Shown: positions 12,031-57,698 of the stretch, in pieces
How the letters are laid out: each line of letters begins with the position of its first letter
How positions within the stretch are numbered: position 1 is the stretch's first letter
Assembly: GCF_001610835.1 (NCBI RefSeq)
Contig: NZ_CP011270.1
Location: 3,552,001-3,616,000 of the forward strand
Direction: 5' to 3'
Length of the DNA: 64,000 bases
Source of the DNA: Planctomyces sp. SH-PL14
Lineage (GTDB): Bacteria > Planctomycetota > Planctomycetia > Planctomycetales > Planctomycetaceae
Made by a program: the position numbers and the translations under genes
Notes under the pieces: generated by a model
The model's database searches: none
Told to the model about the DNA's origin: nothing
The model's input: the letters and a program-made list of their open reading frames with translations, nothing else

Positions 12031-12762
12031 GTGGAAATCGTTCTGGACTGCGCGTGCGGAGGGAAGCTGGCGGTTCACGAGGGACAGGCCGGGCTGCGTC
12101 TCCCCTGTCCCCAGTGCCGGGAAGAGGTGCGGGTCCCCTCCCTCGGCGACTTGCGAAAGAGGAACGGCGTCGTCCCCACGACGAACCCCGTGTTCGAAAT
12201 CGCCGCCAGGCTCCGGTCCGGAGAACTCCCGCTGCGGGAATGCGCCGGATGCGCGGCTCCAGCGCAGTGGGAAGTCCCGCTGGTCGCGGAGTGCGAGCGG
12301 GCCTCCGTGGAGTCGAACGAGGTTCATTGGATCTGGCTGCTCTTCGCCCCCAGGCTCTTCTTCTGGATGCCGGGGTGGGGAGTCCGGGCGACCACGCGCG
12401 AATATGGGCGGGACACCGTGGTGAAGACGCCGATCACCCTGTGCGACTCCTGTTGCCATCAGCGCCCCTCGGAGCCGGGTGAATGGGGCGCCACGCTCTC
12501 CCGGGCCTGTTTCACCGGCGGCTTGTTCGCCTGCCTCTTCTGGCTTCCCGCCGGAGCAGGCCTGATCGGAGTCGCGTTCCTGCTGGCAACGTGGCAGCAC
12601 CGGCGGATGCGAGCTTTCCGCCGCCGCCTGTCGAAGTGGTTCGGCACGGTCCCGGCCTACACCGAGCTGCGGAAAGAGTACCCCAGGCTGGTTCTGCACC
12701 TGGGAGCCGACCCGCGACCGCTGGCCCAATCGGTCTTGTCCCCTTCGTTGCGGCTGGGATAA
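12031..12762 (+). CDS. Zinc-ribbon membrane protein of unknown function
   Basis: A 243-residue protein starting with GTG at 12031. The N-terminus is a zinc ribbon (Cys7, Cys9, Cys26, Cys29: DCACGGKLAVHEGQ then LPCPQC), a module that planctomycetes often place at the front of membrane proteins. Further Cys pairs at 71/74 (ECAGC) and 138/141/142 (LCDSCC) suggest a second metal site built from the middle of the protein. A membrane hairpin spans about 160-188 (FTGGLFACLFWLPAGAGLIGVAF). The C-terminal 55 residues are basic and cytoplasmic-looking. No enzymatic motif is seen. Downstream lie the two paralogous genes, but the roughly 95-bp gap does not prove an operon. Confidence 0.7.
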   Translation: MEIVLDCACGGKLAVHEGQAGLRLPCPQCREEVRVPSLGDLRKRNGVVPTTNPVFEIAARLRSGELPLRECAGCAAPAQWEVPLVAECERASVESNEVHWIWLLFAPRLFFWMPGWGVRATTREYGRDTVVKTPITLCDSCCHQRPSEPGEWGATLSRACFTGGLFACLFWLPAGAGLIGVAFLLATWQHRRMRAFRRRLSKWFGTVPAYTELRKEYPRLVLHLGADPRPLAQSVLSPSLRLG

Positions 12763-12839
12763 CTTTTCCGTCGAGGCGATCGCTCGCTTCCCGCGCCTCA
12801 GAGGACGATCCGCTGTCTGCCGGATCAGGCTGAGTAAAT

Positions 12840-12856
12840 GTGAACAGGAGGTTCAC
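12840..12856 (+). promoter_or_regulatory. Hairpin presenting the Shine-Dalgarno in its loop (first paralogue)
   Basis: GTGAACAGGAGGTTCAC is a perfect 6-bp inverted repeat (GTGAAC/GTTCAC) around AGGAG. The ribosome-binding AGGAGG overlaps the loop and the first stem base pair, 2 nt before the ATG at 12859. The same 17 bases precede the second paralogue. Confidence 0.7.
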
Positions 12857-12858
12857 GC

Positions 12859-13368
12859 ATGCTCCAGGAACTGGCTCTCGCGGCGGCGGCCTGGTCCGCA
12901 GCCGCACTCGACAACGCGTGGTTCGCACTGGAGGCGTACTGTTTCGTCGAAGAGCACGTCGTCACAGACAGGCGATCTCTCGAGGATGAATCGATCCCCG
13001 TTGGCGATCTCATGCCGGGACAGCGGATCGCCGTCCGGGTGGCGGACCGCGAGGGGCGTCCGCAGTATCTGATGGGCTGCGTCGAGGAGGTCGTCGACGA
13101 ACGGATCGTCCTCAGCCGGTCGGTTTCCCATGACGTCGAGGTGCTGTTTCACTCCCCGTCCTGGTCCGAGGGGCTTCCTTATATCGGAGAGCACTGGGGC
13201 ACCTATTGGACGCGGCACACGTTGGAGTACCAGGGGGTGAGTGTCGTTCCGGTCGCTGCCGTGCGGCGGATCGACGAGGACGGCTTTCCGGACTGGATCG
13301 CGTTGGGCGAGATGCCTCAGAAGCTCGGCATCGGCGGACCTCCCAACGCCTGGTATCTGGATCGCTAG
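12859..13368 (+). CDS. Hypothetical protein, tandem paralogue A
   Basis: A 169-residue soluble-looking protein without a recognised domain. It begins MLQELALAAAAWSAAAL and ends in WYLDR. The middle holds PGQRIAVRVADREGRPQYL and VEEVVDERIVLSRS, a beta-rich segment reminiscent of a small barrel, then an HWGTYWTRHTLEYQG stretch. Its downstream neighbour shares the same architecture and an almost identical N-terminus, so the pair arose by tandem duplication. The identical ribosome-site hairpin and first 23 residues in both, against clearly diverged bodies, suggests recent gene conversion at the 5' end or selection on the leader. The function is not known. Confidence 0.72.
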   Translation: MLQELALAAAAWSAAALDNAWFALEAYCFVEEHVVTDRRSLEDESIPVGDLMPGQRIAVRVADREGRPQYLMGCVEEVVDERIVLSRSVSHDVEVLFHSPSWSEGLPYIGEHWGTYWTRHTLEYQGVSVVPVAAVRRIDEDGFPDWIALGEMPQKLGIGGPPNAWYLDR

Positions 13369-13523
13369 ATGGGACTCGGGACCTCGGCGGTTGGTTCGCT
13401 GAAGTGCCGCTCGGGACGGCGAGTCGTCCCCGTCCTCAACCGATCTTGTCCCCCTGGACCTCCCCGGGGTAACGTCCCGCCGTTTTCGGACCGGAGGTCG
13501 CTCCGCGCTCGAGTCCCGCCGAC

Positions 13524-13540
13524 GTGAACAGGAGGTTCAC
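13524..13540 (+). promoter_or_regulatory. Hairpin presenting the Shine-Dalgarno in its loop (second paralogue)
   Basis: Exactly the same 17-nt inverted repeat GTGAACAGGAGGTTCAC as upstream of paralogue A, here 3 nt before the ATG at 13544. Its conservation, while the surrounding leader differs, supports function. Confidence 0.7.
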
Positions 13541-13543
13541 CGC

Positions 13544-14080
13544 ATGCTTCAGGAACTGGCACTCGCCGCGGCCGCCTGGTCCGCAGCCGCGCTCGACAAC
13601 GCGTGGTTTGCGATTCACCTGCAGCTGGTCGTCGAAGAGCGGATCGCCGACCGTCCTCCGGCGATCGACGGCGAACCGATTGCCGTCGACGAGATCGCTC
13701 CCGGACAACGGATCTCGATCCGGATCAGCGACGACGGAGCCCCCGCGCGATTCCTGACGGGCCGCGTCGAAGAGGTTGGCGACGAGCAGATCGTCCTCAG
13801 CCAGACGATCACGCAGGAGGTCCAGCTCCAGTTTCGACCGGCGTCCTGGGCGGCGCCGTTCCCCTACCTCCGCGACCATTGGGGAGGCTTCTTTGTTCGT
13901 GAGACACTCGTCTATCAGGGGGGCAGCGTGATTCCGTTCTCCGAAGCCCGCCGCGTCGAAGCGGCGCGGTTCCCCGATTGGAACACCGCCGGTTCTCTCC
14001 CCTATCAGGTCGTCTCCAAGATCTTCAACCGCCCGACCTGGTACCTCGACACGGAATCGCTGACGGCCGGAACACGATGA
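13544..14080 (+). CDS. Hypothetical protein, tandem paralogue B
   Basis: A 178-residue paralogue of the preceding gene: the first 23 residues are identical (MLQELALAAAAWSAAAL onward), and PGQRISIRISDDG, VEEVGDEQIVLSQTIT, YLRDHWGGFFVRETLVYQGG and the C-terminal WYLD align throughout. It is extended by a few residues after WYLD. Its TGA stop overlaps the ATG of scpB in an ATGA, so translation of scpB is probably coupled to it. That coupling links this unknown family to a chromosome-condensation gene, but does not show a shared function. No signal peptide of standard form is seen; the Ala-rich N-terminus could be an amphipathic helix. Confidence 0.75.
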   Translation: MLQELALAAAAWSAAALDNAWFAIHLQLVVEERIADRPPAIDGEPIAVDEIAPGQRISIRISDDGAPARFLTGRVEEVGDEQIVLSQTITQEVQLQFRPASWAAPFPYLRDHWGGFFVRETLVYQGGSVIPFSEARRVEAARFPDWNTAGSLPYQVVSKIFNRPTWYLDTESLTAGTR

Positions 14081-14952
14081 CGATGGATCCCCAGGAGAGC
14101 GCCGACCTTCCCTTCCGTGCGGTGATCCGCAGCGGGGACGGAGAGCCATCGGACACCGAGGCGATGGCGGAGGATCTCTCGACCGAAGAGAACTTCGACG
14201 TCTCGCAGGATGAGCTCGAAGCGGCCTACCTCCGCGCGATGGAGATCACCGAAGCGGCCGAGGCGGTCGTCGGAGAGTCGCTCGTTCCCAGCGAGATCAC
14301 AGACGAGGACGATCCTCTGCCGACTGGAAACGCCGAGGCGTTCATTCCGAGTGACCTCCCGCGAACGACACTCGATGACGAAACGGTCGACGAAGTCGAG
14401 AACGCGGCGGTCTCCGAAGCGGCGCGGCCGGCGCTGACGTCCCGGCAGGTCCTCGAAGCGCTGCTCTTCGTCGGAGGTTCCGCCCTGACGACCAAGCGGC
14501 TCGTCGAGATCCTCGGAGACGGCTTCACGACCGAGCAGGTCGAAGGGCTCGTCGAGGAGCTCAACTCGCAGTACGCCGCCGAGAACCGCCCCTATTCGAT
14601 CCAGTGGGGGGACTCGGGCTATCAGTTCCAGCTCCGTCCGGAGTTCGAAAAGGTCCGCCACCGCGTCTACGGCCTCGGCCCCAAAGAGGTCAAACTCTCC
14701 CAGGAAGCGCTCGAGGTCCTGGCGTTCGTCGCCTACCAGCAGCCGGTCCGCAAGGCGGACCTGGAGGCGACCGAGCGGAAGAACATCCTCGGCATCGTCC
14801 GCCAGCTCATCCGCCGCGAGCTCGTCGAGCTCCGACGCTCCGACGCCGCGCCGGACGACCCGACGTACCACACGACCTCCCGCTTCCTGGAGCTCTTCAG
14901 CCTCCAGTCGCTCGACGACCTGCCGTTCCCGGCGGACTTCGCGTTCAAGTAG
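14077..14952 (+). CDS. scpB: Segregation and condensation protein B (ScpB)
   Basis: ScpB is the winged-helix kite subunit that joins ScpA and SMC in the bacterial condensin. The conserved core is at residues about 120-291: TSRQVLEALLFVGGSALTTKRL, EELNSQYAAENRPYSIQWGDSGYQ, LSQEALEVLAFVAYQQPVRKADLE, IRRELVELRR and YHTTSRFLELFSLQSLDDLP, all characteristic. The first 115 residues are a poorly conserved acidic extension rich in Glu/Asp/Thr. The start ATG at 14077 overlaps the stop of the previous gene by 4 bases. scpA is not adjacent, which is common outside Firmicutes. Confidence 0.9.
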   Translation: MTMDPQESADLPFRAVIRSGDGEPSDTEAMAEDLSTEENFDVSQDELEAAYLRAMEITEAAEAVVGESLVPSEITDEDDPLPTGNAEAFIPSDLPRTTLDDETVDEVENAAVSEAARPALTSRQVLEALLFVGGSALTTKRLVEILGDGFTTEQVEGLVEELNSQYAAENRPYSIQWGDSGYQFQLRPEFEKVRHRVYGLGPKEVKLSQEALEVLAFVAYQQPVRKADLEATERKNILGIVRQLIRRELVELRRSDAAPDDPTYHTTSRFLELFSLQSLDDLPFPADFAFK

Positions 14953-43607: not shown

Positions 43608-46600
43608 TTACATCAAACCCAGATTCCGCAGACGACGACCGACCCACGCCAGAAGCGTCTCCTTCTCCCCAGCCGGACGCAACGGAATCGAAGCCCCCGC
43701 CCCATCCTCAAACAGCTCCGCCTTCGGAGGCGGCGGAGGCACCGCCGGCGCCCCATCGAGATCCCCCATCCCCTGCGGACCACCCATCCCGGACTGGCTC
43801 GTCGGCGGACGGTCCTGCGTCGTCTCGCGTCCCGTGTCGGGGACGCCACCCTTGAGCGTGACGACCGTGATCGGAAGCGGACGCCCATCCCCCTCCTGAA
43901 CAAAGATCCGGAACGTCCCCGAGTCCAGCTCGCGATAGAGAGCCGGGAAGTCCGCCAGGAACTCCGCCGCCTGCTCGTCGCTGAACACGATCTGCCGGAT
44001 GTTCCCGTCCTGGTCCCGCAGCGGCTTCCCGTCGCGGCCCAGAAGCTGAGCCACGATCCGCCGACCGCCCAGGTTCACCAGCTCCTCCTGCGGCGGCGCC
44101 TGGTCCACCGAGGTCGTTCCGCCGTTCGTCACGTTCGTCGTCGTCAACTCCGCGTCGGCCACGATCTGCCGCGGCGTCTCCAGCTCCGGCACCTCGATCG
44201 AAAGGTCGTAGACGATCGTCGTCTGCAGACCGTCCCCGGGGACCGCGTTGACCGCCTCCTGCGTGTTCACGTCCACCTCCACGCCGGCCACCGTGAACGT
44301 GATGTTGGCGTCGTTCAGGACCGTCACCGTCACGGGGATCGGAGCGGCCGGGTTCCCCGCGTCGGGGTTGCCCGTATAGGTGTGGAAGAAGGACTCGTTC
44401 CCCGGGTTCACGCGGTTGTAGACGTCGACCGTCCCGTCCCCCCACACGATGATGATCGTGAAGGTCTGCTCGTCCGCCAGCGGATCGGCCTGATCGCGGC
44501 CGAAGTCGAAGTTGATCTCCGCCTCCCCCTGGGCCGTCACCTGGTAGGCGACAAAGTTGTCGAACCGCGGGATGACGTCGACCACCTGCCCCGTGCTGCT
44601 CGTCACGAGCGTGCCGGTGTCCATCGTGATCCCGTACGTCGTGCTCCCCGCCACGTCCCCCGTCCCCGCCGCGACCTGGATCATCCGGCCCAGCACCTCG
44701 GGGCCGGCGGCGGGAACCGAGTCCCGCACGAAGACGTCCCCCGTCGCCACGATGTCGACCATGGCATTCGGAGCGATGAGGCTCGCCGCCAGCTCGACAT
44801 CCCCCAGGATCCCGCCCGGCGTCGGATCGGGAGTCGCCGTGACCGTTGAGAGCCGGACGACGCCAAAGTTCCCTCCGGCGTAGGTCGCGTTCGAAACGAT
44901 CCCCGCGTTGACGAAGATCTTGCCGTTGTGGACGACCTCGATGTTGTTCGCCCCCGTGCTGCCGTTCGTCAGCCCCGCCACGGTCTGCGTCCCGAAGACG
45001 TTCGTGTACGAGACCGACGTGATGTTGAGCTGGCCGCCGCCCTGACTCGAGAGCAACAGGTCGCCGCTGTTCGTCCGCGCCGCGAGGTTCGTGACCACGA
45101 TCTCAAGCGGGTTCCCGTTCCCGATCCCCGTGTTGGCAGTCAGGGCCGTCGAGGCGGAGCGGATGTCGAGACCGCCGTTGACGTCGCTGTCGAAGATCTG
45201 CCCCAGCACGGCGTCGACCTTGACCAGGGTATCGGAGTCCATGAAGGCGATCCCGACATCCCCCAGGGCCGAGACCACGACGCGTCCGGCGGCGGCGTCG
45301 ATCACCGAGCCGTCGGTCATCAGGACCGACCCGCCGCGGGCCGTCACGCCGATGTCCTGCGAGCCGAAGTTCACGAGGTAGGAGCCGGCTGCCATCGTGA
45401 CGTTGGCGGCGGCGTCGACGAGCACCTGGCCGGTCGAGGAAGCAACCCCCGCCGATCCGGCGAGGTTCACCGATCCGGTCCGGGCGATGAGCGAGGCGTC
45501 CTGCGCCCCGGTCGTCGAAACGAGCGACCCAACCCCCAAGTCGACGTTCGTGAACCCGTCGAGGCTGATCCGGCCCCCCGTCGAGCCGATGAAGGTCGAC
45601 GCCCCGACCAGCACTCCGCCAGTCCGGGCCGTGACGGCGATCTCCTGCGTCCCGGTATTGGTGACCTGGACCCCGGTTCCGGTCACGACGTTCCCCGCGG
45701 CATCCAGGGCGACACGTCCCGTCCCGGCGCTCACGACCGTCGCGTTGCCCAGGCCGATCGACCCGCCGCGGGCGGTCACGAGAAGATCCTGCGAACCGGC
45801 CGTGGCAACCCGCGAAGAGTTCCCGATGTCCACACCGGCCGCGGAGTCAATCACAATCCGGCCGCCAGTCGAACTGATGAGCGACGACGATCCGACCGAG
45901 ATTCCGCCGGTCCGTGCGATCACGGCAATTTCCTGCGTCCCGGTGTTCGTGACCTGGACTCCGGTTCCGGCGACGACGTTCCCCGCCGCATCCAGGGCGA
46001 CGCGTCCCGTCCCCGCGCTCACGACCGTCGAGTTCCCGAGCCCGATCGATCCGCCGCGGGCTGTCACGAGAATGTCCTGCGAACCGGCCGTGGCAACCCG
46101 CGAAGAGCTCCCGATATCCACGCCGGCCGCCGCGTCGACCACAATCCGGCCGCCGGTCGAGCTGATCAGCGACGACGATCCGAACGACACTCCGCCGGTC
46201 TGGGCGGTCACGGCGATCTCCTGCGTCCCGGTATTGGTGACCTGGACGCTCGTCCCGGCCACGACGCTCCCCGCCGCCGTCAGAGCGACGCGTCCCGTCC
46301 CGGCGCTCACGACGGTCGAGTTCCCCAGCCCGATCGACCCGCCGCGGGCCGTCACGAGAATGTCCTGGGAGCCGGTGTTGGCGACCTGCACACCGGCGGC
46401 CAGGCCGACGCTCGTTGCCGCATCGACCACGATCCGTCCCGCGCCCGCCAGGATCGAGGCCCCCGTGCCGACCGCGATGTTGGCCGACTTCGAGGTGACG
46501 CTGATGGCCCCCCCCGCCGAAAGGATCTGGGCCAGCGAACCGATCGCGACCGTCGAGGCCGCCTCCACGTTGATGTTGCCGCCCGTCGACTGGAGCGTGC

Positions 46601-49600
46601 TGCTGATGTCCATCGTGATCGTGCCGAGCGAGACGAGGCCGATCAGCGCGTTCTTCGTCGAGATCGTCCCTTCGACCGTGATATCGGTCGCGGCGTTGAG
46701 CTCGACCGGACCGCTCGAGACCCCTGGAGAGACCGTGGCGATCGTCGTGCCGGCGTTGTCCACGAGGATCCGGTTCGTCGTGACGTTCATCCCCCCCGCG
46801 CCGGAGAGGGTCACGTCGTCCCGGAACGTCGTCGTCCCGGTCCCGCTCACCTGGGTCCAGGTCTGGGCCGCGACCGTCCCCTGCACGGTGACGTCGTTGG
46901 CCGAACTGATCCGGACATCCTGAAGCTCGGCCGAGCCGATGTTGCCGCTGAACAGGATGTCGCCAACGCTGCCGGAGGCGAGCGTCAGGTCCTGCCCGCC
47001 GGCGGTCGCCCCCTGGAGCAGTCCGGTGAAGGTGATGTTGTTCCCGGCCGGAGCGAGGCCGCCGCCGGTCGTGTCGATCGAAACGCTCTGGAGGAGCGTC
47101 GTCGTGCCGTCATAGGTCGCGGTCCCGCCGCGGGAGCTGAGGCTCCCTCCCCCCGGAGACGACGGGTTGCCGAGGAAAATGTTCTCCGCCTGGTAGATCA
47201 GGTTTCCCTGCGAGGCGATCGGGACATCCGGATTGACGAAGCCGAGCGTGAGGTTCGCCTCCTGGCGGATCTCGTCGGCGCCGCTTCCCCCCGTGATCGA
47301 GACCGACGGCGTAAAGCCGGCGTCGACCGACTCGATCGTCACGAAGTCATCGCCCCCCCCGGCATCGATCGTGAGCTGCCGGGCCGCATTGGCGAGCGCG
47401 TTCCCGTTCACCGCCGCGTCGTCGAGGATCGTCATCGAGTCCGAGCCGCTGCCGAGCTTCAGGCTGATGTCCGCGAAGCTGCTGTAGTCCATCCGGCCAC
47501 CGAGGCCGAACAGCGACTCGGTCTGGACGAATTCGAGCGACTTCGTGCCGAAGGTCGTCCCGGCAATCGCCGTCGTTCCGTCGACGGGAGTCGTCTCGTA
47601 ACCGAAGGTCGACTGCGCGGAGTCGAACCCGAACGTCCCCGTATCGGCGTCGATCACCCGGAGGCGGTATTCGAGCTTGTCTCCCGCCGCCGGATCGAAG
47701 CCCGGCAGAGCGGAGAGCGGAATCGCGATCTCGTAGGCGGCCGCCCCCGAGGTCCCCGGAACGGTCGTGACGTACGGGCTGTTCTGGTCGACGGTCAGGA
47801 GGAGGTTGCCGTCGGTGTCGTAGAGGTCGATCACCACGCCGCCGAAGTCGCCGTTCGCCTGGTCGGGACCGGCGGGATAGGACTGGATCAGGGCGTAGAG
47901 GTTGGAATCGTCCCAGGCAAACTGGGCCTTCGTCCCCGTGACGTCGGCCTCGCCGGGCGCCCCGTAGAGATAGAGGTTCTGGACCTGATCCGCCGTGAGG
48001 GCGGTGCTGAGGATCGTGAAGTCCGCCAGCTTCCCTTCGTAAGACTGGTCCTGCGGCGTCGTCGAGGCGTCGCCGCCGATCACCAGGTCGCCGGTCGAAT
48101 TGGCGACCGAGGTCCACTCGGTGGCGAGGTTGTTGATCAGGTAGCCGTCGTCCTGGCCGTTGAGGTAGATGTGGGCCTCGGGACCGCCGGCGGCATTGAA
48201 GTCGTACGTGATCGTGACGTGCGTCCACGCGCCGGGCGTGATCTGGCTGCTGCTGACGATGACGTTCGTCGTGTCGTCCGAGCCGTTCTCGTTCGGCGAG
48301 AAGTAGAGGTGGCCGTAGAGGTCCGCGTTCGAGAACGCGTCCCCGCCGTCGTTCTTCCAGTAGATCCCGATCTCGAACTGCTCGCCCGAGTCTTCGAGGA
48401 GGATCGAGGTTCCGGCGGTGTTTGTGTTGCTGACGATCTCCCCTTCCGGATTGATCCAGAACGAGATCGTCCCCTGCGACTTGTCGATCGTGACGTCGTC
48501 GCTCGTATCGGCCGGGCTGCCGGTGCGGATCGTGTCCTGGTCGCCGTCGAACTCGGCGTAGTTCAGCGTCTCGCCGGTTCCAGGCCGGACCGGACCCGGC
48601 TCCAGCGGGTTCGCGTCGCCGTCGACGATCTCGGCCCCCTCGGTCACCTGGCCGACATACAGGGTGATGTCGGTCCCGCCGTCGCCGGCCACGACCGTCG
48701 TCCCGACGACGTTGTCCATCGACCAGTAGGCGACGAGCGATCCCCCCTGGCTCACGTCCCGAAGGTTGGCGTAGGTCCCCTGCGCGTCTCCGACGCTCGA
48801 CTCCCGGATCGCCAGCAGCTCGGTGTCGCTGAGGACGGTGTTGAAGAACGCGACGTCGTCCATCTTCCCGTCGAACGGCCGGTCCTCAGCCCGGTTCTGA
48901 CCGAGCTCGAAGAGGGCGTTCACGGTGTCGAGCGGCGTGTCCCACTCGGCCAGCTCGTTGCTGCCGAACCCGGCCCGGTACTCGACCTCCCCGCCGCTCA
49001 GGGTCTGGGTGTTCTCGTCGTACTCATACAGGTAGATGTGGGCTTCCTGGTTGGTGCCGCCGCTGTAGTCCCAGGTGTACTGGATCACGTACCAGCTGCC
49101 CGACGTCACGGTCAGGCTGCTGTTGGCTCCGCTCTGGAGGATCAGCGAGTCGTCCGAGGAATCGGTCTTGTTGAGGTAGGCGTAGACTTCGCCCCCGCCG
49201 TTGGGGCGGTACTCGAACTCCATCCCGCTGCCGGGGAAGGTGCTGTCCGACTGGACGAACGTGTTGCGGCGGGTCGTGTCGTCCATGTAGACCCAGAAGC
49301 TCAGCGTCCCGGTCTCGCCGATGTCGAAGTCGGCGTCGCCGGTGAAGGTCGCCACGTCGTCGATGCCGTCGAACTCCAGGGCCCCGCCGAAGTGTCCCCC
49401 CTCGGGCTGGGCGCTGTTCTGCTGCGTCGTGAACTGCGGCCCCTGCGTGGTGTCGAGCAGGCTCCCGTCGTAGTCGTTCTCGGAGGCATCGTCGGTGACG
49501 ATCGAGCCCGGGGCCTCGTTGAACTGCCACCGCAGGACGACGATCGAGGTGTCGTCCGGCCGCGCTCCGGTGTCGAGCGCCGCCGGGATGCTGTCCCACT

Positions 49601-52600
49601 CGCCGGGGAGGATCGAGCCGTCCGCCTGCGGCGAGTCCTCGCCCGCGACGTTCGCCGCCGAGCCGCCCGTCGGGGCCGCTTCGCCGCCGATCGTCGTCTC
49701 GGTCATGGTGAAGGTGTCGCCGGTCGTGTCCGCCTCGTCGTTGATGAACAGCCGGTCATTGAACCGCGTCTCGTCCGCGTCGTTCCGGCCGCCGTTGACG
49801 GTCAACTGAAACGTGACGAAGTCGACCGACCCCGCCGTCGCGCTCCCGTCGTTGCCGATGTAGAACGTGTCGGCTCCGTCGCCCCCGTTGAACGTCGTCA
49901 CCGCGTCGTAGGCGGCGTCGGGAGCGAAGAACGCCAGCGTGTCGTCCCCCCCGCCGAGGTTGACGGTCAGGGTCTCGCGGGCGTTGCGGAACTCGACAGA
50001 GACGAAGGTCGTCGCCCCGACATCGAGCAGCGCGCTGTAGCCCGCCTTCGGGTCGTCCGTGAGCTGGACCTGATCGGCGGCGCCGGTCAGGTTGAACGTC
50101 CGGTGGGCCGCGTCGAGGTCGTCGACGATCGGGGCTTCGAGCCCCGTGTACTGGACTGTCGAGCGGCGGAGCGAGCCGTCGGTCGCGTTGACCTTGTCGA
50201 TCTCGATCCGGCCCGCCGAGCCGCTGAGAGCGGTATGGATCACGGACTCGACGACCGCGTCCAGGATCGAAAGCTGGTCCTGACCGGCGCCGCCGTTGAA
50301 GACGATCCCCTGTCCGTCGACCAGCCCTTCCGACGGGATCGCGTCTCCCCCCCCCTGGTCGATCGTGAGCGTGTCGTCCCCGTCCGAGCCGTTGACTTCG
50401 ATCGAGTGCAGGAGGCCCACGTCGCCGCGGAAGACCACGCCGGCGTCCGCCCCGGACGCATTGACCGAGACCTCGACGAGGCTTCCGACCCGCTGGACGA
50501 CGAAGTCGTCGCCAACGAGGTCCTGTCCCGGATCGCCGGTCGCCGAGTCGGCGCTGATCTTCACGTTGAGAAGCCCCGTGGCCACAGGCTCCGGGGTCCC
50601 GTCATCGGCGATCTGCGGACTGAGCCCGAACGACTCGACACCCGTGATCGTGACGTTCCGGAACGCCCCCGTCAGGGTCCCGGTCCCCGGGTCGGTCAGA
50701 GTGAGCGTCGACTCGGAGGGGAGATTCAGTTCCAGCCGGTCGCCGGGGTTCGCGGGATCATCGGGGTCGCCCGGCAGGTTCGGGTTGCCGGCGTTGATGA
50801 CGATCTCGGTCTCGGTGCTCGGCGTCAGGTCGATCCGGTCGGAGTTCCCGCCGGTGTTGACCGTCACGCGGTTGAGGTCCTCATAGTGGATCGGAATGAA
50901 GCCCCGGACGTCGACCTGGCTGCCGTCGACGACCACGGTGTCGGAGCGGCCGGCGGTCGGCGGTTGCTCGAGCGCGTGGAGGACGCCGACGTAGATCGGA
51001 TCGGGGTCGTAGGTCGAGGCGCCATACTGGCTGAAGCTGGCGAGAGCGCCCGGATCGGGACGGTAGGAGCTCGTCGCCCCGCCGTCCTCGGGGATCACGA
51101 CCCCGACGCCGGACGAGTCCTCCATCCGGTCGGCGTCGATCAGGTTCGCGATCCGGATGGCGTCGATCGTTTCCCCGTCCGCCAGGCCGAAGTCGCTCAG
51201 GTCGTAGGCGGTCAGGAACGCCTGGCCGGAGGCGGAGAAGTCGCTGGCCGGGATATAGATCCACTCGGACCAGCCGTTGTTCTCGGTCGAGGTCGTGCTG
51301 TGGACCTGGACCATCATCCCTTCCGGAACTCCCGTCGATCCGGACTCGTAGACCACAAAGTCGACGCCGGTCTCGTTGGCCAGCGTCTGGCCGCCGGACC
51401 ACGTGAGCTGGATCACGCTGCGGTCGCTGTTCCCCTGATTCCCCCCCGGCATGTTGAGCAGCCGCGAGGTGGTGGTCGGCGTGGTCGATTGCGTCGAGAG
51501 GTTGCCGACCGAGAGGGTCCCGTCGAACACCGCTCCGGTCGTGACCGCCGTAAAGGTGAGCGCGCTGCTTCCGGTGGCGAAGGCCCCGTTGTCGACGAGG
51601 GCCCCGTCGCCGTCGGGAACCGGCGCCCCGGGAGCCGCCCCGCCGGTCAGGTTCGTCAGGACGTCGGGCGTCGAGGCCTGGTTGATCGTGTAGTTCGTCA
51701 GGGTGAACCCGTTCGCCTTGAACTCCACGGGGTCGGGAGCGGGGGCGTCGGACTCGGTGTTGACGATGAGCTGGTCCAGGCCGCCGCCGTCGCCGATGAC
51801 CTCGATCTGCGGATCGGACCCGGCCAGGACGAAGTTCCGCTCGATCGTGACGGTGTCGTCCTGCGTGGAACGGAGATCGACGACCAGCGACTCGATCTGG
51901 GTCACGCGGACCGTGGTCGTGGTCGAGCCGTAGACGGCGCTGACCTCGTTGTTCTCGAGCGTGATCGACGTCGCCTCACCCGGAGCGCTGACGATCGTCA
52001 GTTCGTCGTCCGCCGCGGGGTCTCCCCCCTCGATCGTGATCGTTTCGGGAAGGCCGGTGGTCCCCAGTTCGACGGTGATCTGGTCCACGCCGCCGCGGGT
52101 GTCGACCGTCAGCTCGTCAAAGCCGGTGTGGGTGATCGTCGGCCGCTGGGTCCCTTCGGTCTTCACCTCGATCGTGTTCCCAGTGACCGTCACCTCGTCG
52201 CTGCGGGTGTTCGAGGGGGCGTCGAGTGGATGGAGCGAGCCGACGTAGAGCGGGTCGGCGTCGAAGGTCGCATTGCCGTAGAAGGTGAAGCTCGCCAGCG
52301 GGCCCGGATCGGCGAAGACGTTGCTCGTATCGCCGTTGTCATTGACGATCACGAACCCCTGGCCGACGTAGGTCCCGCTGCCGACCGTCGTCTCGACCCC
52401 TTCGCCCTCGATGCGGTCGGACGCGTTGAGCGTCGCGATCCGGATCGCGCTGATCGTGGCGCCGTCCCCCAGCCCGAAGTCGGTCAGGTCGAAGCCGGTC
52501 GCAAAGGCGCCGGCGTTGCCGGTCCCGCCGTAGGCCGCGCGGCTGTCGGCTGCCTCGTACCGCCACTTCGTCCAGTAGCCTCCGCCGCCGTTGCCGTCGT

Positions 52601-55600
52601 CCTCGACATAGACCTGGACCATGTAGGCATCGGGCCCGGTCGGGTTCGACGACGCCTCGTAGACCACGAAGTCGTCGCCGCTCTCGTTGGAGAGGGTCCG
52701 GTTCCCCGACCAGCTGAGCTCGATCGCGGAGCGGACCTCGGTCCCGACATTGCCGGCCGGGAGGTTGATCGCCTTGGCCTCATTGTTGTTGAGCCCATCG
52801 AGCTGGTTGCCGAGCGTCAGGCTCCCGTCGAAGTCCGCGGGGTTGTCCGGGAACGAGGCGGCGCCGGTCGGGCTGCCGGCGTTGGCGGTGATGACCACGC
52901 CGTAGCCGCCGTCGAGCGTCCCCGTCGGGACGATCGAGACGACATCGGGCGTATCGGTCTCGGCGAAGGTGAACCCGGCGAAGCTGAAGACCGGATCGGC
53001 CGTCGGAGCGTCGACCAGATTGACCGTGAGAGTGTTGTCCGCGCCGCTGCCGCCGTTGATCGTGAGTGAGCCGGTCGGATTGACGAACGAGACCACCTCG
53101 GCGTTCTGCGAGTCGATCGTGCTCAGGCCGACCGAGGCGTAATCGAGGACCACGTCGTCCTGGGCCGTGCCGTAGTTGAAGGTCCGGTTGACGGCGGAGA
53201 GGGTGTCGGTGATCGGCTCCAGCCCGCTGTAGCCGATCGTGACCGTCGCAGCGCCGGTCGTGGCGGTCACCGAGCCCGACGAGGCGCTCCCGAAGGTGTG
53301 GACGACCGAGCTGTACGTCAGGGTCGTGTCCTGCAGGACGAGGCTGTCGCCGCTCCCGGAGGTCGGCGCGCCGCCGTTGTAGCTGATCGCCCGCGGCGAG
53401 CCGCCCGCCAGCGTCACGGCGTCGGTGATGTCGACCGTCAGTGTGTCGGTCCCCGCGCCGGTGTTGACGATGATCTGGCCGGAGAACGAGGTGAACGGGA
53501 CGTAGATCGTGCTCGACTCATTCCCCACCGCGCCGGCGACCGAGGTCGAGAGGACGCGGGAGGTGTCGGTGATCTCGATCCCCGGGCCGCCCGGCCCGTT
53601 TACGAAGCGGATGACGAGGTCGTCGTTCGTCGCCGAGCCGATGTCGGTGATGACGAGGTCGTTGCCGACGAGCGCCACGGAGGTGTCGGCGGTCACCGGC
53701 AGCAGGGCAACGTCGTTGCCGTTGTACGTGTAGGTGATCGTGTACCGCCGTCCGCCGACGAGGACCTCGTCCCCCTCCGCCAGCCCGGCGAACGTTCCGG
53801 TCACGGTGCCGGATCCCGCCTTGTCGATCAGGACAAACGGCCCGGCGTCGATCGGGGCCGACCCGTTCACGACGAGCGTCGCCCCGTTCAGGTTGACGGT
53901 CGCAGTCGTGCTGGTGACCGCAAGCTGGTCGTAATCGGTCCCGGGAGTCGTCCCGCCGGTGACGTTCACGACGAACTGCGACCCGGACGAGAGCGTGGTG
54001 TTGCCCGCGGTCTTCGTGATCTTGCCGGTCCCGCCGGCGGCTGGAGAGACGACGCCCCCCGTGTTGACCGTCAGGGCCCCGGTGATCGTTCCCGCGGCGG
54101 CCAGCGTGCCGTTGCCGTTCACCGTCACGGCGGCGAGGGTTCCGGTCGAGGTGACGAGCCCGCCGCTGTTGATCGTGACCGCTCCCGCGACCGCCCCGCC
54201 CCCTCCCAGCGTCGCCCCGTTGTTGACCGCGACCGCCGTGTTGGCCAGGGCCCCCGCGACGAGGAGCGTTCCGGCATTGATCGTCGTCGCGCCGGTGTAG
54301 GTGTTGGTCCCCGAGAGAACGAGCGTCCCCAGCCCCTCCTTGGTGAGCCCCCCGGAGGAGGAGACGATGGCCGAGATCTCGAGGTCCGTGCTCGCCGCGC
54401 CGTCGACGACGGTCACGGTCCGGATGACACCGGTCCCGAGCGCGAGCCGTCCGGCGATCGTCGCCCCCACGGCCCCCGTGCCGGCGACCGTGTGGGTGAT
54501 CCCGCCCGTTCCCGGAGCGAGGAGCGTCAGCGTTCCGCTCCCCGACGACGTGACGAGCGAACCCGAGCTGCTGCCGCTCTGGACGCCGAGGGCGAAGATC
54601 GTCTCGTTGAAGGTCGAGAGGTTGAAGACCCCCGCCGCACCGACGTTGATGGTGGTCGAATTGTTGATCCGGTCCGAGCTTCCCAGGACGAAGGTCCCGG
54701 AGACGAACGTGATCGTCCCGCTCCCCGCGCTGAGGCCGCCGGTGGCGATCGTCACGCTGTCCGCTTCCACCAGGAACTGGTTCGCGTTCCCGCTTGTCGA
54801 AGTCGTGAGCGACGTGGCCGCCAGCCGCAGCGGATCGGCCGCGGATCCGATCCCCCCCGAGCCGGCGGTCAGCGACACCGCGCCGGCGGCGAGGTCGGTT
54901 CCGGAGGCGTCGGCCGTGATCGCTCCCGCGGCGCCGGTCGTCAGCGTCGCGCTCCCGGTCGTCGTCAGGCTTCCGGTCGTGAAGGCGATGTTCCCGCCCG
55001 TCGTGAGCGTCAGGTTCTGGGCGCCGAGATCGACCGCCGAGACGACGGAGATGTTCCCGGTCGCCGCGCTTCCGATCGCCAGCCCCCCCGCCGAGCTGAT
55101 GAGGTTCAGTTCCGTCTGCGTGAGACCGAGGACGGTCGGCGAGTCGGCCCCGCCGATTTCGATCGCCCGGTTGGCGGTCGTCGTCAGCAGCGTCGTGGCG
55201 AGTGCGCTCGAAATCGATCCCGAGATCGCCATCTGGTCGGCGGTCAGCGTCACCGAGCCGAGCGCCCCGGTCGCCCGGATGTCGGCAGCAGCAAGCGTGT
55301 TGTTGACCGTCAGGAGCCCCGCATCGACGTTGACCGCCACCGCCCCGCTCGGTCCCCCGCTGATCCCCGAAACGCCGTCCACGTCCGCCACGGTCAGGCC
55401 GTTCGACTCGCGGAACGTCACCCCGGCCGAGGTGGTCGCGATCGCCACGTTCGTGACCGAGTTCGCATTGGTCCCGAGCGCCACCGCTCCGTTGGCCGAG
55501 ATCGCGAGATTGCCGACCGTGATGGCGCCGCTTCCGGTCGTACTGATTCCCGCGCGGGACGTGAGGCTCAGCGTGGCGATATTGTCCGGCGTGATCGCGT

Positions 55601-57698
55601 CCGTGATCGTGAACGCGCCGCCGGTGGTCCCGCCGATCCGGAGCGTCCCCGCCAGAACCCGGTCGAGCTCCGCGTTCGAGACGTTGAGCGATGTCCCGGG
55701 ATCGGTCTCGCCGAGAAACACCGCCCGGCTCGCGGTGATCGGGGCGATCGTCACCGTCCCGCCGACGCCGGACTGGAGCGTCTCCTGCAGGTCGAGCGTG
55801 TTGACCGACAGCGTGATGTCCCCGCTCGTGGCGGTCTTTCCCGAGAGGACCATCGTCGTGGCGGAGAGCGAGACCCCCGTCGTCGAGGCGATGTCCTGGA
55901 CCTGCGCGGTGTTGTCGAGCGTGAGCGTCCCGGCCGTGACCGAGATGTCGATGTTGCCGTTTCCGGTCCGCAGGCCGGCGACGCCGTCGACGGTCGAAAT
56001 CGTAAGCGTGTTCGAATCGCGGAAGCTGACATTGCCCGTCGTCGTCGCGATCGCGAGGGAGCCGACGTTGTTGGCGGCGGTCGCCAGCGCGACGTCGCCG
56101 CCGGCCGTGACCGCCAGCGAGTTCTCCGTGAGCGTCCCCGCGGCGGTCTGCGTGACCGTGCCGCCCGAGGTGAGGTGCAGCTGCGTCGTCCCCGACGGCG
56201 CGATGGCGGCCGAGACCACGATCGAGCCGGTCGCGTTGTTTCCGATCTGGATCTGGGCGGCGGTGACGCGGTTGATCTCCGCGCTGGTCAGGCCCAGGAC
56301 TCCCGCGGAGTCGGCGGCGCCGAGATTGATCTGCTGGTTGGCCGAGAACTGCTGGAGGGTCGCGTTCCCGGTCGTCGAGAGCGCCCCGGCCGAGAGGTTG
56401 ATGTTGTTGGAAGCCAGAACCAGCCCACCGGAACCGGCGCTGACGACGACCCCGGCGTTCGTGACCGCCAGGCTACTCGCCGCGGTCAGGCTGATCGCCC
56501 CGGTCCCTGAGGTCGTGAGATCGGAGTTTGCGGTCCCCAGCGTGATCGAGTCCGCCACGACCGCGAGCGAGTGGTTGACGGCCAGCGTGATGGCGGCATT
56601 GTCCGTGAACGCCCCGCCGGTCTGGAGGAGGAGGTTGTTGGAATGGCTGATCGTAGTGGCGATCGTCATCGCCCCCGAGCTCGCGTCGCCGATCAGGACC
56701 TGCGCCGCCGTGACGCGGTCGAGCTCCAAGTCTGTCAGCCCCAGCGGTCCGCCGACCACCGTGTCGTCCGTCCCGATCGTGATCGCCCGGCCGGCGGTGA
56801 GCTGATGCAGCTCGACCTGCCCCGTCGCCGTCAGCGTGCTTCCGAGGTTGAGGTCGATGTCGTTCGCCTCGAACTCCGCATCCACGGTCGTGATGGCGGC
56901 GTTCGACGTGATCGCTCCCGCCGAGACCGTCAGGTCCCCGTCGATGTCGATCGTCCCCGAGAGACTCGCGGTCCCCCAGCCGGTGATGTCGAGGTCCTCG
57001 GCGCCGGCATCATCGACCGCCGTCCCGTTGAACGAGAACGCCCCGCTCCCCGGCCCGATGATCGACAGCGAGCTGTCCCCGGCGAGATCGGCGTCGATGT
57101 CGAGGTTGCCATTGAGCGTGAACTGAGAGGCCTGCCACGTCACGTCCCCGGTGGTGAAGACGTTCCCGTTGAGGTTGACCTGCAGCGACGCATACGAGTC
57201 CTCGGCGAGATTGATCGTCTCCGCCGTGATGGTGACATTGCCCGACGGCCCGGCCACGTTGTCCAGGAGATCGACGGTGTCGCTTCCGGCCCCCCCGTTG
57301 ACCGTCAGCGCGATCCCGGGGAGCAGCGGCGTGATGAGGTGGTCGTTCCCGAGGCTGAACTGGGCGCTGATCCCGGTGACGGACCCCAGGCTCACGGAAT
57401 CGGCCCCGCCGCCAGCCCCGCCGATGGCGACCTTCACTCCCAGGTCGTGGTCGAAAACCGAAAGCTGGTTGAGAGTCGTGTCAAACTGAACCTCGACGTT
57501 GTCGTTGAGATTGGCCCCGCTGTCGTCGGTGATCGTCAGAACCCCGCCCGTCAGCACGGCGGACAAACCGGCGGAAAGGAGACGGCGGTCCTCGAGCGTC
57601 TCGATCGCGAGTTGCGGAAAGGCATCACTCCAACCCGGGCGGCGTGGTCCGAACGCCACACGGTCCAGGGCCGATACAAATCGCTGAATCAGTCTCAT
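43608..57698 (-). CDS. Giant planctomycete surface protein (LEPRxLL-like N-terminus, adhesin-type repeats, LamG domains)
   Basis: A single 4696-residue open frame. Residues 33-43, ETLEDRRLLSA, match the planctomycete LEPRxLL-type N-terminal motif for cell-surface or secreted giants. Most of the protein is filamentous-haemagglutinin-like beta-helix repeats rich in Gly/Ser/Thr/Val. Around residue 1130 is an autotransporter-associated strand repeat (GTNTYTGATTINAGTLLVAG). Two paralogous domains at about 1610-1830 and 2065-2250 share FVVYE, LSDFGL, IRIA and ADPG-type ASF blocks. Two concanavalin-like (LamG) domains lie near 2735-2960 and 3040-3250 (TLSFWVYMDDTTRRN, GTISFWINPEG). A 96-residue tandem repeat spans about 3770-4050. 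The C-terminus is Pro-rich then ends in AWVGRRLRNLGLM. AGGGGAAG precedes the ATG. It probably mediates adhesion or builds an extracellular sheath. Confidence 0.93.
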   Translation of the reverse strand: MRLIQRFVSALDRVAFGPRRPGWSDAFPQLAIETLEDRRLLSAGLSAVLTGGVLTITDDSGANLNDNVEVQFDTTLNQLSVFDHDLGVKVAIGGAGGGADSVSLGSVTGISAQFSLGNDHLITPLLPGIALTVNGGAGSDTVDLLDNVAGPSGNVTITAETINLAEDSYASLQVNLNGNVFTTGDVTWQASQFTLNGNLDIDADLAGDSSLSIIGPGSGAFSFNGTAVDDAGAEDLDITGWGTASLSGTIDIDGDLTVSAGAITSNAAITTVDAEFEANDIDLNLGSTLTATGQVELHQLTAGRAITIGTDDTVVGGPLGLTDLELDRVTAAQVLIGDASSGAMTIATTISHSNNLLLQTGGAFTDNAAITLAVNHSLAVVADSITLGTANSDLTTSGTGAISLTAASSLAVTNAGVVVSAGSGGLVLASNNINLSAGALSTTGNATLQQFSANQQINLGAADSAGVLGLTSAEINRVTAAQIQIGNNATGSIVVSAAIAPSGTTQLHLTSGGTVTQTAAGTLTENSLAVTAGGDVALATAANNVGSLAIATTTGNVSFRDSNTLTISTVDGVAGLRTGNGNIDISVTAGTLTLDNTAQVQDIASTTGVSLSATTMVLSGKTATSGDITLSVNTLDLQETLQSGVGGTVTIAPITASRAVFLGETDPGTSLNVSNAELDRVLAGTLRIGGTTGGAFTITDAITPDNIATLSLTSRAGISTTGSGAITVGNLAISANGAVALGTNANSVTNVAIATTSAGVTFRESNGLTVADVDGVSGISGGPSGAVAVNVDAGLLTVNNTLAAADIRATGALGSVTLTADQMAISGSISSALATTLLTTTANRAIEIGGADSPTVLGLTQTELNLISSAGGLAIGSAATGNISVVSAVDLGAQNLTLTTGGNIAFTTGSLTTTGSATLTTGAAGAITADASGTDLAAGAVSLTAGSGGIGSAADPLRLAATSLTTSTSGNANQFLVEADSVTIATGGLSAGSGTITFVSGTFVLGSSDRINNSTTINVGAAGVFNLSTFNETIFALGVQSGSSSGSLVTSSGSGTLTLLAPGTGGITHTVAGTGAVGATIAGRLALGTGVIRTVTVVDGAASTDLEISAIVSSSGGLTKEGLGTLVLSGTNTYTGATTINAGTLLVAGALANTAVAVNNGATLGGGGAVAGAVTINSGGLVTSTGTLAAVTVNGNGTLAAAGTITGALTVNTGGVVSPAAGGTGKITKTAGNTTLSSGSQFVVNVTGGTTPGTDYDQLAVTSTTATVNLNGATLVVNGSAPIDAGPFVLIDKAGSGTVTGTFAGLAEGDEVLVGGRRYTITYTYNGNDVALLPVTADTSVALVGNDLVITDIGSATNDDLVIRFVNGPGGPGIEITDTSRVLSTSVAGAVGNESSTIYVPFTSFSGQIIVNTGAGTDTLTVDITDAVTLAGGSPRAISYNGGAPTSGSGDSLVLQDTTLTYSSVVHTFGSASSGSVTATTGAATVTIGYSGLEPITDTLSAVNRTFNYGTAQDDVVLDYASVGLSTIDSQNAEVVSFVNPTGSLTINGGSGADNTLTVNLVDAPTADPVFSFAGFTFAETDTPDVVSIVPTGTLDGGYGVVITANAGSPTGAASFPDNPADFDGSLTLGNQLDGLNNNEAKAINLPAGNVGTEVRSAIELSWSGNRTLSNESGDDFVVYEASSNPTGPDAYMVQVYVEDDGNGGGGYWTKWRYEAADSRAAYGGTGNAGAFATGFDLTDFGLGDGATISAIRIATLNASDRIEGEGVETTVGSGTYVGQGFVIVNDNGDTSNVFADPGPLASFTFYGNATFDADPLYVGSLHPLDAPSNTRSDEVTVTGNTIEVKTEGTQRPTITHTGFDELTVDTRGGVDQITVELGTTGLPETITIEGGDPAADDELTIVSAPGEATSITLENNEVSAVYGSTTTTVRVTQIESLVVDLRSTQDDTVTIERNFVLAGSDPQIEVIGDGGGLDQLIVNTESDAPAPDPVEFKANGFTLTNYTINQASTPDVLTNLTGGAAPGAPVPDGDGALVDNGAFATGSSALTFTAVTTGAVFDGTLSVGNLSTQSTTPTTTSRLLNMPGGNQGNSDRSVIQLTWSGGQTLANETGVDFVVYESGSTGVPEGMMVQVHSTTSTENNGWSEWIYIPASDFSASGQAFLTAYDLSDFGLADGETIDAIRIANLIDADRMEDSSGVGVVIPEDGGATSSYRPDPGALASFSQYGASTYDPDPIYVGVLHALEQPPTAGRSDTVVVDGSQVDVRGFIPIHYEDLNRVTVNTGGNSDRIDLTPSTETEIVINAGNPNLPGDPDDPANPGDRLELNLPSESTLTLTDPGTGTLTGAFRNVTITGVESFGLSPQIADDGTPEPVATGLLNVKISADSATGDPGQDLVGDDFVVQRVGSLVEVSVNASGADAGVVFRGDVGLLHSIEVNGSDGDDTLTIDQGGGDAIPSEGLVDGQGIVFNGGAGQDQLSILDAVVESVIHTALSGSAGRIEIDKVNATDGSLRRSTVQYTGLEAPIVDDLDAAHRTFNLTGAADQVQLTDDPKAGYSALLDVGATTFVSVEFRNARETLTVNLGGGDDTLAFFAPDAAYDAVTTFNGGDGADTFYIGNDGSATAGSVDFVTFQLTVNGGRNDADETRFNDRLFINDEADTTGDTFTMTETTIGGEAAPTGGSAANVAGEDSPQADGSILPGEWDSIPAALDTGARPDDTSIVVLRWQFNEAPGSIVTDDASENDYDGSLLDTTQGPQFTTQQNSAQPEGGHFGGALEFDGIDDVATFTGDADFDIGETGTLSFWVYMDDTTRRNTFVQSDSTFPGSGMEFEYRPNGGGEVYAYLNKTDSSDDSLILQSGANSSLTVTSGSWYVIQYTWDYSGGTNQEAHIYLYEYDENTQTLSGGEVEYRAGFGSNELAEWDTPLDTVNALFELGQNRAEDRPFDGKMDDVAFFNTVLSDTELLAIRESSVGDAQGTYANLRDVSQGGSLVAYWSMDNVVGTTVVAGDGGTDITLYVGQVTEGAEIVDGDANPLEPGPVRPGTGETLNYAEFDGDQDTIRTGSPADTSDDVTIDKSQGTISFWINPEGEIVSNTNTAGTSILLEDSGEQFEIGIYWKNDGGDAFSNADLYGHLYFSPNENGSDDTTNVIVSSSQITPGAWTHVTITYDFNAAGGPEAHIYLNGQDDGYLINNLATEWTSVANSTGDLVIGGDASTTPQDQSYEGKLADFTILSTALTADQVQNLYLYGAPGEADVTGTKAQFAWDDSNLYALIQSYPAGPDQANGDFGGVVIDLYDTDGNLLLTVDQNSPYVTTVPGTSGAAAYEIAIPLSALPGFDPAAGDKLEYRLRVIDADTGTFGFDSAQSTFGYETTPVDGTTAIAGTTFGTKSLEFVQTESLFGLGGRMDYSSFADISLKLGSGSDSMTILDDAAVNGNALANAARQLTIDAGGGDDFVTIESVDAGFTPSVSITGGSGADEIRQEANLTLGFVNPDVPIASQGNLIYQAENIFLGNPSSPGGGSLSSRGGTATYDGTTTLLQSVSIDTTGGGLAPAGNNITFTGLLQGATAGGQDLTLASGSVGDILFSGNIGSAELQDVRISSANDVTVQGTVAAQTWTQVSGTGTTTFRDDVTLSGAGGMNVTTNRILVDNAGTTIATVSPGVSSGPVELNAATDITVEGTISTKNALIGLVSLGTITMDISSTLQSTGGNINVEAASTVAIGSLAQILSAGGAISVTSKSANIAVGTGASILAGAGRIVVDAATSVGLAAGVQVANTGSQDILVTARGGSIGLGNSTVVSAGTGRVALTAAGSVVAGTSVQVTNTGTQEIAVTAQTGGVSFGSSSLISSTGGRIVVDAAAGVDIGSSSRVATAGSQDILVTARGGSIGLGNSTVVSAGTGRVALDAAGNVVAGTGVQVTNTGTQEIAVIARTGGISVGSSSLISSTGGRIVIDSAAGVDIGNSSRVATAGSQDLLVTARGGSIGLGNATVVSAGTGRVALDAAGNVVTGTGVQVTNTGTQEIAVTARTGGVLVGASTFIGSTGGRISLDGFTNVDLGVGSLVSTTGAQDASLIARTGSVNLAGSAGVASSTGQVLVDAAANVTMAAGSYLVNFGSQDIGVTARGGSVLMTDGSVIDAAAGRVVVSALGDVGIAFMDSDTLVKVDAVLGQIFDSDVNGGLDIRSASTALTANTGIGNGNPLEIVVTNLAARTNSGDLLLSSQGGGQLNITSVSYTNVFGTQTVAGLTNGSTGANNIEVVHNGKIFVNAGIVSNATYAGGNFGVVRLSTVTATPDPTPGGILGDVELAASLIAPNAMVDIVATGDVFVRDSVPAAGPEVLGRMIQVAAGTGDVAGSTTYGITMDTGTLVTSSTGQVVDVIPRFDNFVAYQVTAQGEAEINFDFGRDQADPLADEQTFTIIIVWGDGTVDVYNRVNPGNESFFHTYTGNPDAGNPAAPIPVTVTVLNDANITFTVAGVEVDVNTQEAVNAVPGDGLQTTIVYDLSIEVPELETPRQIVADAELTTTNVTNGGTTSVDQAPPQEELVNLGGRRIVAQLLGRDGKPLRDQDGNIRQIVFSDEQAAEFLADFPALYRELDSGTFRIFVQEGDGRPLPITVVTLKGGVPDTGRETTQDRPPTSQSGMGGPQGMGDLDGAPAVPPPPPKAELFEDGAGASIPLRPAGEKETLLAWVGRRLRNLGLM
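45560..46400 (-). repeat. 288-bp (96-residue) tandem repeats inside the giant surface gene
   Basis: Near-identical DNA recurs at exactly 288 bp (for example GAACCGGCCGTGGCAACCCG at 45793 and 46081). Each 96-residue unit is two related 48-residue halves (GSQDILVTARGGSIGLGN and GTQEIAVTARTGGVSVGS). About three units are present, flanked by degenerate ones. Confidence 0.88.

Follow-up and report, generated by a model that had tools for sequence, protein, structure and literature searches.

Identical hairpins over the Shine-Dalgarno sequences of two tandem planctomycete genes: candidate CsrA-type sites in a genome enriched for ANGGAN hairpins at start codons

Two tandem paralogous genes of Planctomyces sp. 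SH-PL14 carry an identical 17-base hairpin over their Shine-Dalgarno (SD) sequences, which we read, with a probability of just under one half, as a site of the weaker kind for a CsrA/RsmE-type protein. The genes lie in a 64,000-nt stretch of contig NZ_CP011270.1, referred to below as the window. Taken by itself, the paired hairpin offers a modest example of ribosome-binding-site control that is open to testing. The wider result is weightier: among 235 hexaloop patterns, ANGGAN is the only one with a clear hairpin signature at start sites, in a CsrA-rich genome and order.

CsrA has been worked out chiefly in gamma-proteobacteria, which have one to a few copies each.

In the structural work on the homolog RsmE, the high-affinity site defined by NMR is an ANGGAX hexaloop placed directly on a stem (PMC4005645). 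The CsrA site has also been defined by SELEX, and the ligands described there mostly have at most four contiguous pairs and 6-nt loops (PMC7652899). Planctomycetes are named among the phyla in which CsrA may be controlled by FliW (PMC4682653). Among the papers listed by our searches of an open-access collection, none is a study of CsrA targets in Planctomycetes.

Results

An identical hairpin precedes both genes

The sequence GTGAACAGGAGGTTCAC stands exactly and on the same strand ahead of each paralogue (Table 1), as the original prediction had it. The two copies are the sole matches in the window at up to three mismatches (0.08 expected). They are also the only exact matches in the whole genome of 8,442,773 bp, so that looking for the 17-mer before other genes, as had been proposed, led back to these two alone. 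Folded in isolation, the 17-mer is predicted to form the proposed 6-bp stem closing on an AGGAG loop, with a free energy of -5.5 kcal/mol, and the gaps of 2 nt and 3 nt to the ATG agree with the close spacing claimed for it. Within longer sequence contexts, comprising at least 10 nt upstream and at least 20 nt downstream, the predictions put the gene 1 hairpin at 99% or more, firm in every context tried, but the gene 2 hairpin at only 3-38%. Rfam gave no match in the window at the gathering score.

Table 1 Features of the paired hairpin, its genes and related loci
Feature	Position	Strand	Remarks
RNA hairpin 1, GTGAAC-AGGAG-GTTCAC	12840..12856	+	SD AGGAGG mostly in loop; ATG 2 nt on (12859)
Gene 1, 169 aa	12859..13368	+	No family in Pfam/NCBIfam
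RNA hairpin 2, 17 bases identical to hairpin 1	13524..13540	+	ATG 3 nt on (13544)
Gene 2, 178 aa	13544..14080	+	Paralogue of gene 1, 48% identity; no family in Pfam/NCBIfam
scpB-like gene	14077..14952	+	TIGR00281 match, under that model's cut-off
csrA homologue, 75 aa	3225..3452	+	Above Pfam cut-off; under NCBIfam csrA cut-off (63 vs 70.1 bits)
Third, unlinked paralogue	G000:C1:6511577-6512071	-	41% and 44% identity

The loop of the isolated fold leaves A-GGA-G unpaired, that is, the A(N)GGAX core with the N missing, and is closed by a C-G pair. With its 5 nt it differs from the high-affinity arrangement of an ANGGAX hexaloop directly on the stem. All three paralogue coding regions carry CAGGAAC close to their start, a candidate second GGA for the other face of a CsrA dimer.

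Conservation and chance

The surroundings of the 17-mer have diverged far. Upstream of it, an ungapped comparison of the two leaders finds the same base at 12 of 40 positions. The first 23 residues of the proteins are identical, as predicted, while beyond them only 58 of 145 aligned residues are, which likewise bears out the statement that the rest of the leaders and most of the protein differ. At the nucleotide level, 62 of 69 positions are identical in the first 23 codons and 255 of 435 afterwards. Seven of the 23 codons differ silently while encoding the same residues, and the N-terminus is thus held at the protein level. Among codons for unchanged residues, fourfold-degenerate sites agree at 9 of 15 positions inside the N-terminal block and 13 of 29 outside it. 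Given this divergence, unchanged stem bases are informative: by our own arithmetic from the fourfold sites, the chance that all 11 non-SD positions of the 17-mer agree is about 1e-4 to 4e-3, and conservation of the stem to this degree appears unlikely under neutral drift.

Such stems are also rare at the AGGAG sites sampled. We surveyed AGGAG SD sites before open frames of at least 150 codons in 1.66 Mb (n=220) and found a perfect stem of at least 4 bp on an AGGAG loop at two, both of them the hairpins of genes 1 and 2. Exchange of flanks between the 220 sites yields about 0.07 with at least 6 bp. As the two genes are paralogues, this counts as one event plus conservation rather than as two independent finds.

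An orphan family and its third member

The third paralogue retains 13 of the 14 first residues (MLQELALAAxAWSA), and conservation within the family is highest at the N-terminus. Its leader has an SD sequence, without the 17-mer and without a predicted equivalent stem. By eye, five of six pairs would be possible there, but the stem is missing from the predicted fold, which does not outperform shuffled sequences, so we rejected this as evidence of covariation.

Relatives of the gene 1 and gene 2 proteins were not detected in 101 genomes of the family outside the window's own genome, in a profile search of 170 genomes of the order (in which the displayed rows belonged to the same family), in a genome contig collection searched twice or in a viral contig collection; the genus was represented in the searched set by one genome. 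We discounted a match in one other genome (G064; E 1e-3, 28% identity over 83 residues, in a long frame containing a stop), a further, weak match within the window's genome (E 0.0035 over 54 residues) and one more MLQELA start, the fourth, whose protein is unrelated, and disregarded Pfam matches at E 0.06 and, for the third paralogue, 0.18. Structure prediction for the gene 2 protein, from an alignment of two rows, was poor (pLDDT 43.5).

A possible ATG of the scpB-like gene overlaps the stop of gene 2 as ATGA (14077-14080), which makes translational coupling possible; an alternative ATG lies at 14083. Through this overlap, control exerted at gene 2 could extend to the SMC-ScpB complex.

ANGGAN hexaloops are enriched at start sites

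Every AGGAG SD sequence contains GGA, so the motif alone is uninformative, and the question becomes one of stem placement and register. Our sample joined the window to 140 stretches of 20 kb each, 2.864 Mb in all or 34% of the genome, and in it a simple codon-score finder predicted 1877 genes with their starts; 1804 starts remained with identical leaders counted once. For each loop class, perfect Watson-Crick stems were counted at positions -22 to -1, and the null was obtained by exchanging 3' flanks within the class. An initial broad null, with GGA in any loop of 4-8 nt and a stem of at least 5 bp, gave 24/734 against about 17 expected and was uninformative until split by register.

Over this third of the genome, ANGGAN hexaloops sit on stems of at least 3 bp at 25 of 288 sites, against 5.8-6.5 expected. 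The counts are 12 against 1.7 for stems of at least 4 bp, and 6 against 0.5 for at least 5 bp. Altering any fixed base abolishes the excess ([CGT]NGGAN, 10 observed and 15.6 expected; ANGG[CGT]N, 4 and 5.9; ANG[ACT]AN, 3 and 4.4; AN[ACT]GAN, 7 and 7.2). Loops of other lengths are near expectation (ANGGA, 6 and 5.0; ANNGGAN, 5 and 5.3), ANGGANN showing a modest 10 against 5.7 that lies inside the shuffle range. On the antisense strand there is 1 ANGGAN hairpin against 3.4 expected. When all XNYZWN patterns represented by 20 or more sites are compared, 235 in total, ANGGAN is the lone clear outlier (25 against 6.5, Poisson p 2.9e-8; next p 0.013).

The first 80 stretches had suggested the hexaloop idea, and the later 60 served as a held-out test. 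There, 11 of 117 sites carry the hairpin against 2.2 expected, a count reached by none of 2000 shuffles, and stems of at least 4 bp number 5 against 0.65 (p 0.001). Pentaloops of the AGGAN type, to which the hairpins of genes 1 and 2 belong, are not enriched (6-7 observed, 6.7-7.3 expected). With those two hairpins included, the first set contains 6 against 4.1 for at least 3 bp and 4 against 1.2 for at least 4 bp, and the held-out set 1 against 3.0. The genome-wide statistics therefore vouch for hexaloops and not for the AGGAG loop.

Elsewhere around genes the excess is weaker or lacking: observed and expected ANGGAN counts are 15 and 12.7 at -200 to -100, 10 and 5.9 at -100 to -60, 8 and 4.7 at -60 to -20, 12 and 6.1 at +3 to +60, and 27 and 19.2 at +60 to +190; the zone -10 to +15, which partly overlaps the main one, gives 10 and 3.6. 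A mild general excess of ANGGAN hairpins beyond the start site is possible.

As a negative control we used 1 Mb of pSymB from S. meliloti, an organism not known to have CsrA; a crude CsrA pattern found no match on this stretch. ANGGAN hairpins occur there at 2 of 205 sites against 3.0 expected in a first run with slightly laxer training cut-offs for the gene finder than in our genome, and, when the settings were matched exactly, at 2 of 197 sites with 2.9 expected. The G+C contents of the two samples are close, though unequal (62.2% for pSymB, 65.6% here). Taken together, the sequence statistics indicate that a CsrA network very probably acts at ribosome-binding sites in this organism.

Leaders with ANGGAN hairpins and their genes

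Among the 25 hairpins, which match the published high-affinity CsrA signature, there are 22 distinct stems and 11 distinct loops, so they are not copies of one element. Examples are the leaders in stretches L067 before 6810 (+), L027 before 11207 (-) and L066 before 16019 (+). Two transposase leaders are identical, so that 26 rows correspond to 25 hairpins. A Pfam scan covered 20 of the 26 rows; the other six are three rows that were divided between stretches, the duplicate transposase and two others. Envelope, polysaccharide and other genes are represented, with matches to an O-antigen ligase domain, to an inverse autotransporter beta-domain accompanied by a beta helix, and to FtsW/RodA, two outer-membrane efflux proteins, FtsX/MacB, OmpH, OprB and NhaA, and to a cyclophilin, a MarR regulator, a glycosyltransferase, a methyltransferase, LVIVD repeats, DUF6263 and a transposase; 4 of the 20 scanned genes have no Pfam family. 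Hydrophobic N-termini are somewhat commoner among the ANGGAN genes, at 14 of 25 against 620 of 1817 (Fisher p 0.03, one test).

The leader CCCGA-AAGGAT-TCGGG is common to L129:6572-7957 (-) and L150:5044-6429 (-), whose products are identical over the first 120 residues; the first is a DDE_Tnp_1 protein. This leader group resembles the RsmZ-2 hairpin CCCCGAAGGAUCGGGG, described as an RsmA-binding positive control in PMC4066749, and the mobile element that carries it is possibly under CsrA control.

CsrA proteins and patterns across the order

The presence of a csrA gene within the window had been correctly noted; the homologue lies 9.4 kb from the hairpins. It is weak evidence, because the genome carries about ten such genes, nine with matches above the Pfam cut-off and one below. 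CsrA is present in each of the 170 genomes of the order that we searched, with at least one match above the Pfam cut-off and 3-17 matches per genome. Seven of the ten matches in our genome were inspected by eye: L4 is present in all seven, and R occurs at position 44, or at 43 in one with a one-residue deletion. Both L4 and R44 are marked as RNA-contact residues in PMC7652899, and Arg44 also in PMC4005645. None of the seven csrA leaders inspected has an ANGGAN hairpin of at least 3 bp.

The pattern TGAACAGGANGTTCA occurs before ATG at 11 places in 7 of the 170 genomes, namely the window's two and nine in six other genomes, and its reversed control has no match in the 170. Three of the nine places outside the window's genome are one repeated sequence, TGAACAGGACGTTCAAAAATG, found three times before ATG in a single genome (G038); this similar AGGAN pentaloop hairpin is perhaps a repeated element. 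As sequence patterns, the occurrences elsewhere in the order are suggestive. A different pattern, GACANGGANGTC, was rejected: it precedes ATG in 163/170 genomes against 148/170 for an arm-swapped control, and at 11 against 5 places in the window's genome, and in-frame coding sequence (for example Asp-Lys-Asp-Val) fills it too.

Discussion

We propose that the loop of the 17-mer hairpin displays the SD sequence of both genes in the form of an A-GGA-X site. A bound CsrA-type protein would then cover the ribosome-binding site and block translation, while in its absence the ribosome would open the short stem; scpB behind gene 2 might be affected through the ATGA overlap. Since the 5-nt loop lacks the N that would separate A from GGA, we expect weaker binding than at the genome's ANGGAN hexaloops.

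Sites of this kind have precedent. Structures have been solved for a weaker class of RsmE site in which a C-G pair closes a 5-nt AGGAX loop (PMC4005645): stem-loops SL3 and SL4 of RsmZ share this loop type and closing pair with our hairpin, and their affinities are given as 1.5-3.5 uM, while that of the hexaloop SL2 is 16 nM. They differ in being sites of a sponge RNA rather than ribosome-binding sites, and in the second closing pair, which is U-A or G-C in SL3/SL4 and A-U here. In placement our hairpin is closer to hcnA of Pseudomonas fluorescens, bound by RsmE, where a stem-loop encompasses the ribosome-binding site with GGA in the loop (PMC4005645), although that loop is the hexaloop ACGGAU and not an AGGAG lacking the N. 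In the CsrA-repressed glgC of E. coli, an SD-overlapping GGA is a contact (PMC7652899), but there a strong hairpin lies just upstream and the dimer bridges from it to the SD, whereas in genes 1 and 2 the SD is inside the hairpin. With six pairs and a 5-nt loop, the hairpin also departs from the SELEX ligands as described in the same source.

The suggestion of a CsrA site in the original prediction is therefore sustained in part. The unchanged hairpin, the nine CsrA matches and the ANGGAN enrichment speak for it; the pentaloop and the lack of enrichment of the AGGAN class speak against. Its premise that a looped AGGAG or GGA makes the classical CsrA target was too loose, the high-affinity site being a hexaloop with N between A and GGA. 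Also counting against a CsrA site are the third paralogue, which has no hairpin, the weakness of hairpin 2 in longer contexts and the score of the window's CsrA, which falls below the NCBIfam csrA cut-off.

In a rival explanation, the stem is a plain translation element that exposes the SD, keeps it clear of longer GC-rich structures and alone sets initiation. The firm prediction of hairpin 1 in all contexts tried would suit it, as would a pentaloop that is not this genome's preferred CsrA loop. Yet the prediction for hairpin 2 is weak once the context is lengthened, and no other of the 220 AGGAG sites has such a stem, which argues against a general device here; we regard this explanation as rather unlikely. 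Shared ancestry with partial gene conversion would instead have copied the 17-mer and 23 codons between the tandem genes, making the hairpin a chance feature of the ancestral leader. The conserved block does end sharply on both sides (12/40 identical positions upstream, 62/69 inside the codons, 255/435 after), and with about 0.07 chance hairpins per 220 sites, one somewhere in the genome would not be astonishing. However, the block already contains the seven silent differences in 23 unchanged codons, its fourfold-site identity (9/15) is not clearly above that of the rest (13/29), and the unlinked third paralogue keeps 13 of 14 first residues, which places the N-terminus under protein-level selection. 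We consider conversion unlikely.

Very improbable, in our view, is that GTGAAC-N5-GTTCAC acts as a DNA operator for a transcription regulator. Its arms do mirror each other perfectly as an inverted repeat across a 5-bp spacer, but this repeat occurs at only these two places in 8.44 Mb and is placed on the SD rather than on a promoter, and a search for sigma-70-like promoters in 12600-14200, which covered that type, found none.

That the hairpins of genes 1 and 2 belong to the CsrA network of the genome is plausible. A bolder extension would make loop length a code, in which AGGAG-type loops are read by particular CsrA paralogues within an order-wide, multi-paralogue network that would act largely through SD-containing ANGGAN hairpins, often at envelope and polysaccharide genes; we consider this improbable. 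Why the genome keeps ten CsrA proteins, and whether targets are split among them, can be tested with the 25 leaders.

The window also contains, at 43608-57698 on the minus strand, a single open frame of 4696 codons for a very large repetitive protein.
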